A stretch of DNA of 43,014 nucleotides from a virus. The notes under the pieces were generated by a model. The model was not told the origin of the DNA, ran no database searches, and saw only the letters and a program-made list of their open reading frames with translations. The translations under genes and the position numbers were made by a program. Below are positions 9,417 to 12,224 of this stretch, piece by piece (position 1 is the stretch's first letter; each line of letters begins with the position of its first letter). The DNA is taken from the IMG/VR virus record IMGVR_UViG_3300025308_000320, positions 1-43,014 of that record. One strand, written 5' to 3'.

Positions 9417-9701
9417 ATGTCTTATTCGTTTGCAGTCCGCGGTGCCACCGTCGCTCTTGCGCTTGCCGCAGCAAGCCAGGCGTTTGCGAAGGTCGTCGAG
9501 ACACAACCCGAACATGCTGCGGATATGGAGCCGGCCCTGGGCACCGCCAGCGTATTTGCCGAGCTGCTCAAACCAGACGAATCCAAGGATGTTTCGATCA
9601 GCATGAACGGTTGGCTGAACTGGAACCAGCCGGACAAAGAACCGGAATTCTGCGGAGCGTCAGTGACGGTGTCGGTCTGCCACGTCGCGCGGGATTCCTG
9701 A
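9417..9701 (+). CDS. small phage protein of unknown function
   Basis: The 94-residue product begins MSYSFAVRGATVALALAA and goes on with HAADMEPALG and ESKDVSISMNG. I know this layout from a widespread family of short phage proteins found near lysis or tail genes; no function is known. The hydrophobic start could be read as a signal peptide, but relatives have a charged helix there, so export is uncertain. The ATG at 9417 is chosen because TTTGGAGA stands just before it. It lies alone on the plus strand between two leftward operons. The symmetric dyad at 9320-9329 could also drive it. Confidence 0.65.
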   Translation: MSYSFAVRGATVALALAAASQAFAKVVETQPEHAADMEPALGTASVFAELLKPDESKDVSISMNGWLNWNQPDKEPEFCGASVTVSVCHVARDS

Positions 9702-9715
9702 CTCCCGGCAATATT

Positions 9716-9741
9716 AAAAAGGCCCAGAAATGGGCCTTTTT
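9716..9741. terminator. bidirectional intrinsic terminator
   Basis: AAAAAGGCCC (9716-9725) and GGGCCTTTTT (9732-9741) are perfect inverse complements around a six-base loop. Each strand has a five-T run after the stem. It separates two convergent units: the rightward gene at 9417 and the leftward repressor operon ending at 9764. Confidence 0.9.
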
Positions 9742-9763
9742 GCTATTCGGTAACCGTATTCGG

Positions 9764-10279
9764 TCAGCGCTTCCAGCGCTGGTTATACGCGGATCGAAGC
9801 TGGTCGCACTCTGCCCGTTTTGCGCTTTGTTGCGACTGCAGTGCCGCAATCTGTGTCTGGCGGTTATGCTGGTCGAGCATCATGTTTTGGGCGCTTGCCG
9901 CATCCAACGGTGTGCCAGTTGGTGCGCTTGCTGCGATCTGGCCGATCCGCTGCGTGATCCACGCGGCCTCGTTTTCGCATCCCTGGATGCGCTCGTTTGC
10001 CTGATCCCGTTCGCGCTCATCGATGCGCGCCTTGACCCGCTGATTGATGTACTCCTGGTCTTTCTCCAGCTTGGCCTGCTGCGCGCTTTGCAATGGCTCC
10101 GTTGTCGATGCAGTCGGCGCTGCTGCCGGTTTGGTCGGCATGGCATCCGAGCGACGAGCAGAACCAGCGCACGGCCGATCCTGATACACCATCGCGCCGT
10201 CAACCTTGCACCGGTAGGCGTCCTGAGCGAATGCTACGGTCGACGCGAAAAACAGAGCAAAAAAAACGGATTTATTCAT
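9764..10279 (-). CDS. secreted DUF4124-like protein with coiled coil (repressor operon)
   Basis: The 171-residue product has a Sec signal peptide (FFALFFASTVAFA, cut likely after AFA, residue ~19). Next comes AYRCKVDGAMVYQDRPC, the pattern of the DUF4124 domain common in periplasmic proteins of beta- and gammaproteobacteria, with two cysteines that could form a disulfide. The rest, residues ~60-165, is helical and charged, probably a coiled coil. The start at 10279 overlaps the preceding stop by 8 bases. As the last gene of the repressor unit it should be made in the lysogen. Role unknown; an envelope or exclusion function is inference. Confidence 0.75.
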   Translation of the reverse strand: MNKSVFFALFFASTVAFAQDAYRCKVDGAMVYQDRPCAGSARRSDAMPTKPAAAPTASTTEPLQSAQQAKLEKDQEYINQRVKARIDERERDQANERIQGCENEAAWITQRIGQIAASAPTGTPLDAASAQNMMLDQHNRQTQIAALQSQQSAKRAECDQLRSAYNQRWKR

Positions 10280-10931
10280 ACACAAGACCGATAGGGAATA
10301 GCTGGTAGCTGTTTCCTTTCTTTTGTCGCCTGACCCAACCCAATTCATCAGCGAAATACAACCCATAGCGAACCTGCTCTTTCGTAAATTCAGGAAAATG
10401 ACGATAGATTTTGCTCTGCAACTGCCCCGGGTTGTCAAGAACGAGTTGCTGTACCCGTCTCGCGATTAAATGAACCATTGGATCATCAGCAGCAAACGCA
10501 GTCATATCCTGCTTGAATCGCGCCTTGGTTGCTTCGTCATACCGGCTGCCGACCATTTCATAGGCGACCTTCTGCAGACCATTGCGCGTATTCTCTGCTG
10601 AGGCTTGGTCGTATTTGTCCTGATCGCCATCGGGAGAATATTCACCATGAGCAGCGTAGTATTTTTCGAGTGATATTAATGGCTTCCCAAACTGCATCCT
10701 GGGATCTTCTTTGGGAGCAGGATCCGGCCGAGGTCTCTGCGGTGGCGCTTTCGCTGCAATGCTATCCCGGCTCGGCGGCATAACTGGATAGCCTCTGTGC
10801 TGGTCTTCGTAGCGTTTTGGACTATTTCTGATGTAGCGCTTTCGAGTTCCAGCTTCACGCCTGATCATGGCGACAACGCCGATCACCAGTAACGCAATGA
10901 CAATAACGATCAGGAATACCAGAGTCTTCAT
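10272..10931 (-). CDS. membrane-anchored protein with winged-helix-like C-terminus
   Basis: The 219-residue product begins with one membrane span (TLVFLIVIVIALLVIGVVAMI) followed at once by an Arg/Lys-rich stretch (RREAGTRKRYIR), so the long C-terminal part should be cytoplasmic. After a Pro-rich linker (residues ~50-75) comes a helical part. The last ~60 residues (NPGQLQSKIYRHFPEFTKEQ, then ADELGWVRRQKKGNSYQLFP) resemble a winged helix: helix-turn-helix, then a two-strand wing. It overlaps the previous gene by ATGA. It might bind DNA from the membrane, but the wHTH call is by eye. The family is not recognised. Confidence 0.72.
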   Translation of the reverse strand: MKTLVFLIVIVIALLVIGVVAMIRREAGTRKRYIRNSPKRYEDQHRGYPVMPPSRDSIAAKAPPQRPRPDPAPKEDPRMQFGKPLISLEKYYAAHGEYSPDGDQDKYDQASAENTRNGLQKVAYEMVGSRYDEATKARFKQDMTAFAADDPMVHLIARRVQQLVLDNPGQLQSKIYRHFPEFTKEQVRYGLYFADELGWVRRQKKGNSYQLFPIGLVYE

Positions 10932-11497
10932 GAACGGCCTAGCTCGGTTTCCTTCTTTCGTAGTCGGCGCGCGGCTCGTTCTGGCGAAATCATGTGATCT
11001 GCCGCTAACCACATGGCGCCAATCCCAACAAACAGTGCCACAAGTGCCGTGATCGCAAGTTCAGTGTCGTTTAATTTAGAGCGGCCGGTGACCAGAGCAG
11101 CAAAAACAAGCTCAAAAAATACCCCGAGCAAAAAAATTACCCAGCCGTAACCCTCGGCAAATCTGCTTGCCTCGATCCGCAGGTCGTTATCACCATCCAG
11201 GTATTCCACTGTTTTGTGTTGCCACATTCGGCTTAGGCTTCCGGTGCCGCGCCACTTGAGGTACCCATGGCGCGCCTTCAGCTCTCGAAGTAACGCTCTG
11301 GCACGCGTGCCGGCCCGAATGCCAGTATCCCGGAAAAATTCGTTTTCCTCTTTTGCGTCAGCATCCCCCTCCGGTGGGAGACGGTAAGGACAGGACTTTG
11401 GCCCTGGGCATGGCATCTGGATCGTGATTGGTGCATCACTGTTATTGACTACGCCAACGGAGCCATGCAGATGCGTATCACCTGATCGCGCATTCAT
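10928..11497 (-). CDS. two-span membrane protein coupled to the repressor
   Basis: The 189-residue product has a polar N-terminal half with three cysteines (MPCPGPKSCPYRLPPEG), a charged helical segment, then two membrane spans (WVIFLLGVFFELVFAALV and ITALVALFVGIGAMWLAA) and a basic tail (RAARRLRKKE). It starts in a 4-base ATGA overlap with the repressor stop, so it is translated with it and expressed in the lysogen. A superinfection-exclusion or envelope-sensing role is possible but not shown. I do not recognise the family. Confidence 0.75.
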   Translation of the reverse strand: MNARSGDTHLHGSVGVVNNSDAPITIQMPCPGPKSCPYRLPPEGDADAKEENEFFRDTGIRAGTRARALLRELKARHGYLKWRGTGSLSRMWQHKTVEYLDGDNDLRIEASRFAEGYGWVIFLLGVFFELVFAALVTGRSKLNDTELAITALVALFVGIGAMWLAADHMISPERAARRLRKKETELGRS

Positions 11498-11904
11498 TTT
11501 TTCGACCCCATGTCTATTTTTACCCCTCCTTCGATTTTTTCAACCTGCGCCCCAACTCTGCCGTGAATGATCACCTTCCCGGCGTTGGATTGATCTTCGC
11601 CCAAGAGCACCCGTAGAGCGGCATCTTTTAATGATTGTGGGCTGCCGCGATAGCGGGCGATCAAGTAGCGCTCATTGGTACTTAAGACATCCTGCATGGG
11701 GCCTTCACGGTCGCCTGTGATGATGTAACGAACATCAGCCCCTGCCACTGCCATTGCCGAAAGCTGAACAGCTGTCGGGGAGGTATTTCCCGACTCCCAT
11801 TCGGTATATGGGCGACGTGTTACCCCAGCCACTGTCGCGAAATCCTCCTGGTTAAAACCTAGCCGTTTTCGCTCTTCCTTCAGTCGCGCACCAATTGTGC
11901 TCAT
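11494..11904 (-). CDS. XRE-family phage repressor
   Basis: The 136-residue protein has an N-terminal HTH_XRE domain: IGARLKEERKRLGFNQEDFA, then VAGVTRRPYTEWESGNTSPT (HTH about residues 18-37) and a tail typical of CI/Cro-like regulators (GADVRYIITG). The start at 11904 (MSTIGARL) fits the family; the upstream in-frame codon at 11946 would run through the operator and is rejected. It is divergent from the early operon and faces the operator dyad at 11931-11946. There is no LexA-like protease domain visible, so induction may not depend on RecA cleavage. It leads a four-gene lysogenic operon. Confidence 0.88.
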   Translation of the reverse strand: MSTIGARLKEERKRLGFNQEDFATVAGVTRRPYTEWESGNTSPTAVQLSAMAVAGADVRYIITGDREGPMQDVLSTNERYLIARYRGSPQSLKDAALRVLLGEDQSNAGKVIIHGRVGAQVEKIEGGVKIDMGSKK

Positions 11905-11923
11905 ATCCGCCCAAATAAAACAG

Positions 11924-11952
11924 TTGACATGTGCTGATAACAGCACAATAAT
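11924..11952 (+). promoter_or_regulatory. early promoter (rightward), sigma70-type
   Basis: A consensus -35 TTGACA (11924-11929) and a near-consensus -10 AATAAT (11947-11952) are separated by exactly 17 bases. It should start transcription around 11959 and drive the early genes from 12027. It faces away from the repressor gene. Confidence 0.85.
11931..11946. promoter_or_regulatory. repressor operator dyad inside the early promoter
   Basis: GTGCTGATAACAGCAC is a 6-bp inverted repeat around ATAA that fills the spacer of the early promoter almost completely, so bound repressor would block RNA polymerase. The right arm with its flank reads AGCACAAT; the same eight bases occur on the minus strand at 11901-11894, in the first codons of the repressor gene, a possible second half-site for autoregulation. 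Confidence 0.75.
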
Positions 11953-12026: not shown

Positions 12027-12224
12027 ATGACCGTCCCTCACTTCAAAGCCTGGCTTCGTAGCCAGGGTAAAACCATCAACCAGTGGGCCAAGGAAAATGG
12101 TTTCCCGCCCGCGTCTGTCTACCGCGTCCTCAATGGCGTCGACAAGGGCAACTTTGGTCGCGCACACGACATCGCTATCAAGGCCGGTATCAAGTCCACC
12201 GGAACCGATCGTCTCGCAGCTTGA
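12027..12224 (+). CDS. BcepMu gp16-family DNA-binding protein (Ner/Cro-like)
   Basis: The 65-residue protein is close to the phage-associated BcepMu gp16 family: QGKTINQWAKENGFPPASVY, then RVLNG and GRAHDIAIKAGIK. It holds one helix-turn-helix. It is the first early gene and so sits in the place of Mu Ner, which turns down early and repressor transcription; the same role is likely. A strong ribosome binding site (AAGGAGG) lies 6 bases before ATG. Confidence 0.88.
   Translation: MTVPHFKAWLRSQGKTINQWAKENGFPPASVYRVLNGVDKGNFGRAHDIAIKAGIKSTGTDRLAA

Follow-up and report, generated by a model that had tools for sequence, protein, structure and literature searches.

Matching terminal tags in prophage repressors and in the proteins encoded next to them, examined from the repressor operon of a B3-like phage

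Phage repressors of the kind examined here often carry a short beta-like tag at the C-terminus (consensus FHGxVGQxVxGDIxAPxTxNV), and the same tag is often found at the N-terminus of the membrane protein encoded just 3' of the repressor. As judged from sequence, matched tags are an established property of these repressors and of the proteins, mostly membrane proteins, encoded next door. The tags are diverse between pairs yet alike within pairs. The operon from which the comparison was made lies in a virus record of 43,014 bases, which was analysed over its whole length and is referred to as the window. We give an even chance to the proposal that a B3-like phage has this unit as its lysogeny operon, in which the tags would dock the repressor at the inner membrane and so link the envelope to immunity.

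Comparison of gene content indicates that the window encodes a B3-like transposable phage. Its transposase is 50% identical to that of Pseudomonas phage B3 (98% of the length covered), and a MuB-like ATPase and a DDE transposase of the B3 kind were matched (phrog_310, phrog_296). The layout is of the Beetrevirus type: repressor and ner are divergent, and lysis and terminase genes lie on the repressor side. The - strand encodes an endolysin, terminases, a portal and a minor head protein, while tail genes occupy the + strand. The host is likely to be betaproteobacterial, since relatives of the two-span protein of the operon come from Azospira sp. I13 and from a betaproteobacterial metagenome-assembled genome (MAG).

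A preliminary description of this DNA had joined the repressor and three envelope-protein genes in one unit closed by a strong terminator. The four genes are real ORFs on the - strand at verified positions (Table 1), and the overlaps described between them (4 bases between the repressor and two-span genes, 4 between the two-span and winged-helix genes and 8 between the winged-helix and secreted-protein genes) are present, so that the unit is translationally coupled to the repressor. The hairpin at its end has a z of -5.13 on the - strand, where 0 of 200 shuffles were as stable, and of -4.02 on the + strand; a plain terminator scan of the window did not list it, probably because the T run forms part of the stem. 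On the other side of this hairpin, which it shares with the unit, a convergent gene (9417–9701, + strand) encodes a small protein with a signal-peptide-like start; Pfam gave nothing for it at E <= 1, and its PHROG matches are weak.

The repressor matches HTH_3 (E 2.6e-8), and solely HTH families score at or above the Pfam cut-off. It is not of the SOS-inducible CI type, as Pfam finds no LexA-like C-terminal peptidase domain in its 136 residues. The palindrome between the promoter hexamers, together with the copy over the repressor start, would form the layout of an autoregulated phage switch. Promoter-like sites number 2 in the window against 2.0 expected in shuffles, which leaves the early promoter weak on its own. 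In the two-span protein, hydrophobic spans at 120–138 and 147–165 and an excess of K/R over D/E (7 vs 4) after the second span indicate that both termini should be cytoplasmic; the protein also contains the motifs CPG...CP, DAKEENEF and DTGIRAG. Its structural model, with a mean pLDDT of 51.8 and values below 50 for the first 45 residues, is too poor to inform on the tag. The secreted protein scores 22.8 bits against DUF4124, above the cut-off of 22. A search of the DNA of the repressor unit against phages gave no match.

Table 1. Features of the repressor operon and its surroundings in the window
Feature	Position	Strand	Details
Immunity repressor, 136 aa	11494..11904	-	N-terminal HTH; C-terminal tail KVIIHGRVGAQVEKIEGGVKIDMGSKK, divergent member of the shared tag
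Two-span inner-membrane protein, 189 aa	10928..11497	-	N-terminal tag THLHGSVGVVNNSDAPITIQM; relatives L002, L003, L010
Single-span protein	10272..10931	-	Span 5–23; Pro-rich linker; predicted cytoplasmic winged helix about 150–215
Secreted protein, 171 aa	9764..10279	-	Signal peptide; DUF4124-like start
Bidirectional hairpin terminator	9705..9765	-	GGCCCA-4-TGGGCC with A and T runs; 3' of the unit
Candidate operator	11930..11947		Palindrome TGTGCTGATAACAGCACA; between hexamers of the early promoter-like site
Second operator-like copy, 79%	11896..11914		Over the repressor start codon
Sigma-70-like early promoter	11924..11952	+	TTGACA-17-AATAAT, facing ner; promoter scan
Ner-like HTH protein	12027..12224	+	Divergent from repressor; phrog_925, E 2.7e-23

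The repressor of the window ends in IIHGRVGAQVEKIEGGVKIDM and its two-span protein starts with HLHGSVGVVNNSDAPITIQM; the corresponding pairs are IIHGDVGQQMRDNSGEITV and HIHGSAGAVVRKNNGTVIV in genome G113 and RFVFHSDVGQVTNVEG and SFHFHKPVGQVVAPQG in Azospira. Phage B3 has a different tag, again matching between the repressor (ISVTGDGNRTAGRDF) and the next gene (IEVTGSNNIVAGRDF). Two-span tagged partners occur in the window, Azospira, G113, B3, Ps59 and L052, and a one-span next gene with a matching tag is found in the P2-like Burkholderia phages KS5, AP3 and Carl1. Among viral relatives, the one closest to the window repressor (L104, 61% over residues 1–107) has a clear tag and an ATGA-coupled one-span tagged partner, followed by another one-span protein. 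Tagged matches to a repressor-tail profile that were kept (n=28, among which the 113-aa L116 is evidently the tail of a second repressor) have a predicted span in 25 cases and a C-terminal Cys-Tyr-Gly-Cys pattern in 22; for the non-redundant matches (n=19) the counts are 17 and 14. One tagged partner lies near DUF1496, below its cut-off, and that of L028 has a zinc-ribbon-like part plus spans. Partners without a predicted span are those of L056, L059 and L087, and at L108 the tagged partner is the second gene rather than the next.

The profile was built from 32 non-redundant repressor C-tails (51 before removal of near-duplicates). With a threshold of >= 8 bits it matched 29 of 3042 other ORFs, every one of them on the same strand as a repressor and <=2 kb downstream of it, a zone holding 461 ORFs, against 0 of 2581 elsewhere (p 8e-25). 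The match is not C-terminal in 26 of them, being mostly N-terminal, and the other three are tails of a second repressor-like ORF. A strict tag pattern was found in 51/164 repressor tails and in 12/1425 control ORF ends.

Within-pair likeness was also evident when partners were swapped. Across 73 loci (those of 93 repressors with a downstream ORF of >= 90 aa) own pairs scored 25.67 and swapped pairs 20.06 (sd 0.56), the own-pair value being reached in 0/20000 permutations. For 16 hand-picked tagged pairs the scores were 43.4 and 26.5 (sd 2.1; 0/50000), the own partner being best in 11/16 rows and 9/16 columns. A survey of 343 genomes from the family of G376 supplied 69 further loci. Of these, 27 new non-redundant ones stayed after exclusion of loci lacking a next ORF, of repeats and of loci resembling the first set (the near-duplicate step took 51 to 27); here own pairs scored 24.15 against 21.21 when swapped (157/50000), in a set where some partners were shortened by the start rule or were one gene further on. 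Chance composition does not account for the likeness, as the own score was reached by <=28/2000 shuffles in 14/16 pairs, the window (15) included; the exceptions, L028 (174/2000) and L029 (297/2000), are not significant alone. With a leave-one-out profile of partner tags, the own repressor tail was beaten by at most 16 of 1107 controls, which still contained a few tagged repressors (L025, L105, L106), in 13/16 pairs. This profile failed for L087 and was weak for L056 (60 controls as good) and the window (44). Leave-one-out scoring also gave a modest association between a tagged tail and an internal span in the next gene (5/10 vs 13/79, p 0.026), near-duplicates L015, L017, L019 and L090 having been removed.

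Codons at identical residues of matched tags are the same in 62/154 cases (0.40), against 0.37 expected from usage, and nucleotide identity is 0.54. Recent duplication of the tag is therefore unlikely, since the codons are no more alike than usage predicts.

A profile of the tag run across 18 whole genomes gave 29 matches at E <= 0.01, and by comparison of coordinates by eye 28 of these fall either within a repressor or in the 2 kb that follow it downstream. The genomes were all chosen for holding such repressors and the profile rows come partly from them, so that only the absence of other matches is informative. The sole match away from a repressor is L207 (G1199:C17, 1213–1956, + strand). 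It lies inside what we take to be a beta-helix-like protein, beside a presumably TIR-like gene, and hints that the tag is a beta-solenoid rung.

This match, the soluble partners and the tagged repressors L021 and L036, for which no tagged neighbour was found, would suit a generic oligomerisation strand that multimerises the repressor and that the neighbours acquired by fusion or exchange at the locus, with no mutual binding. We consider such an origin improbable, because the matching of diverse tags within pairs, with codons as usage predicts, suggests continued selection for matching. That the tags bind each other is, from these comparisons, the most likely step of the docking proposal, since binding gives the best explanation for matching that stayed pair-specific as the codons drifted apart.

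The window's own pair is at the weak end of the family. Its score of 31 was reached by 15/2000 shuffles and by 2/72 swapped partners, its two-span protein ranks only seventh of the 235 ORFs of the window by tag score, the pair obtains 0.5 bits in the leave-one-out profile, and the partner is absent from the 29 profile matches. The tag of the window is divergent and weak by itself, and the case for it rests on close homologues: the pair is accepted because the repressor tail and the two-span protein are homologous to the clear pairs of G113 and Azospira. Drift of the tag may account for this, or the winged-helix protein may have taken over some of its role.

For the single-span protein, the preliminary description had proposed a winged-helix-like end placed in the cytoplasm by its charge pattern, and both parts of this agree with the predictions. 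An AlphaFold model from the single sequence (mean pLDDT 60.9, with a low-confidence linker) has a winged-helix layout at the C-terminus, with block-mean pLDDT of 72–82 over residues 151–210. Helices are predicted at 151–166, 175–178 and 184–196 and strands at 200–205 and 208–213; three helices and a beta hairpin would thus lie within the last about 65 residues, as in a winged-helix regulator. Foldseek of the model gave nothing at E <= 0.001 (best E 0.04, MarR). VIA-align gave Z up to 7.2, with winged-helix domains predominating among the top matches (for example 9fso_F, 1.7 A over 63 residues). A weak flagellar M-ring match to the linker region (E 0.0037, solved-structure profile search) was discounted as composition. 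The C-terminal part should be cytoplasmic, given the span at 5–23 and 7 K/R vs 2 D/E in residues 28–53. In ToxR and CadC a cytoplasmic N-terminal winged helix is followed by the span and then a periplasmic domain; the order in the window protein is reversed, with the span first and the winged helix last.

Matches to the winged-helix protein were found in 3/300 genomes of the Azospira order: G314 (52% identity), G417 (34%) and one that is weak and broken. In G314 the relative overlaps the repressor by ATGA. In G417 it comes directly after another kind of HTH repressor-like gene; the locus also has an amidase on the downstream side and, upstream, a ner-like gene in divergent orientation. As both clear relatives directly follow repressors, a repressor and a membrane-tethered winged helix form a recurrent pair; the shared tag is absent from both of these repressors. 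A search for close relatives gave two stretches in viral contigs, of which none was confirmed, and none in phages.

Relatives of the two-span protein occur in the betaproteobacterial MAG (51%), in Azospira (46%) and, distantly, in G113 (28%), and two of these three are placed after repressors. In Azospira and G113 the gene overlaps the repressor by ATGA, opposite a ner gene; the 22.5-kb fragment that carries the MAG relative (L002) showed no repressor. No match to the two-span protein was found in phages (tblastn) or plasmids. The gene 3' of the G113 pair (L010; 2049–3215, + strand) presumably encodes the N-terminal part of a type I restriction HsdR. The three-gene set proposed for the window is borne out in its parts, the two-span, winged-helix and DUF4124-like secreted proteins each separately adjoining repressors elsewhere, but conservation does not extend to the exact set. 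At L051 the gene that overlaps another prophage repressor by ATGA encodes a short secreted protein, DUF4124-like as judged by eye.

What follows the repressor varies by phage: besides the DUF4124-like protein of L051, a lipoprotein-like gene is next to the untagged B3-like repressors of JBD25, U3, Fc22 and H71. Such variation would be expected of ordinary lysogenic-conversion cargo, in which genes for unrelated membrane and secreted proteins share the promoter of the repressor while their products make no contact with it. This is an unlikely account of the locus type as a whole, since it leaves the sharing of tags unexplained. For the two untagged genes of the window, those of the winged-helix and DUF4124 proteins, it may nevertheless hold.

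Lambda lysogens likewise make a membrane protein together with the repressor, in the RexA/RexB system. Rex has an exclusion role (PMC4378225). A similar exclusion could operate here, lysogen-made membrane proteins blocking growth or killing on superinfection and the shared tag acting as the trigger contact between sensor and effector. We regard this as possible but doubtful. The slot after the repressor is expressed in the lysogen, and exclusion genes are described in the same control region of B3-like phages (PMC9936078). However, the exclusion genes tested in Fc02, olg1 and ORF10, do not include the one that follows its repressor. The three downstream proteins of the window had no match in PADLOC (E <= 0.1; a library that may lack Rex models) or NCBIfam, and, unlike in lambda, the repressor itself carries the tag. 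In addition, the periplasmic Cys pattern seen in many tagged partners and the ORF6C-like part of some suggest sensing more than killing.

Matched motifs in adjoining genes, with a membrane helix in the effector, are also described as a hallmark of amyloid-signalling pairs (PMC7889193; see also PMC8086366 and PMC12261475), and this would fit an exclusion function. The NLR/Bell pairs of BASS likewise have short matched motifs in adjacent or overlapping genes (PMC7889193). This repressor kind generally resembles them in its matched motifs, weakly so for the window pair, but a 136-aa HTH repressor takes the place of the NLR partner, and the likeness is one of description that does not imply amyloid.

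The nearest known loci are those of B3 (ORF18, the repressor, and ORF20) and Ps59, which are of the same phage type (Beetrevirus) and have a two-span protein with a matching tag in the same position. Their tag differs from that of the window (TG.N..AGRDF vs HG.VG), no winged-helix or DUF4124 gene was seen at either locus, and similarity between the two-span proteins of B3 and the window was undetectable (tblastn against phages). A search of viral contigs with B3 ORF20 gave no match. In Fc02 (Beetrevirus), RNA-seq shows repc-e4 and the next gene to be co-transcribed in the lysogen (PMC9936078); the like-annotated H71 and Fc22, examined in place of Fc02, have an untagged repressor with a lipoprotein-like gene next to it. 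Gp11 and gp12 of KS5 are annotated as repressor and membrane protein (PMC3091744). The loci of KS5, AP3 and Carl1 share the tag at the repressor tail and the next N-terminus, but differ from the window in a single span, an ORF6C-like part (14.1 bits for KS5 gp12, cut-off 22) and a periplasmic Cys pattern. Searches of open-licence literature returned no described system with the gene set of the window, nor a repressor–membrane protein tag pair.

In the docking proposal, a repressor without an SOS-cleavable domain, ending in a short beta-rich tag, would pair through this tag with its counterpart at the N-terminal, cytoplasmic end of the membrane protein encoded by the overlapping gene. If the tags bind, part of the repressor would be held at the inner membrane. 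The membrane partner, helped in the window by the tethered winged-helix and periplasmic DUF4124 proteins, would then tie immunity to the state of the envelope, and an envelope change would alter the amount of repressor free on its operators. Alternatively, the partner might act once the repressor is drawn to incoming phage DNA. Gene order, overlaps, the winged-helix model, tag sharing in many prophages and its position specificity are direct observations; tag–tag binding, docking, the direction of the signal and the biological output are what we infer from sequence. Envelope control of induction is favoured for partners with periplasmic Cys patterns, and Rex-like exclusion would be the other fitting output.

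More broadly, and with somewhat less confidence than in docking itself, we suggest that in many temperate phages of Betaproteobacteria and Pseudomonas a homotypic beta tag ties the repressor to the envelope. The repressor would be a signalling adaptor, a phage counterpart of the amyloid-like pairs, and assembly of tags at the membrane or on the operators of incoming phage would relay a signal between envelope and immunity. What tells temperate phages that lack an SOS-cleavable repressor when to leave is largely an open question. If true, the proposal would provide an envelope input for such phages, or make a phage detector of the repressor. It predicts tag-dependent binding within pairs and none between pairs, and it offers a candidate role for the 'hypothetical membrane protein' beside many prophage repressors, those of the well-studied B3 and KS5 included.

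Tag-like sequences were also seen in other arrangements. L116, L130 and L147 have second repressor-like ORFs with tagged tails of their own, about 1 kb downstream of the first, and at L116 several tagged ORFs occur in succession. L200 (G954, about 1267–1569, - strand) is a 100-aa ORF with the C-terminal half of a repressor and the tag but without the HTH, either a fragment or a tag-only protein. At L100, L101 and L039, the protein encoded after the untagged repressor is soluble and contains a tag-like stretch some 30–60 residues in (for example VSGDGVVVGQIVAGDVHQ).
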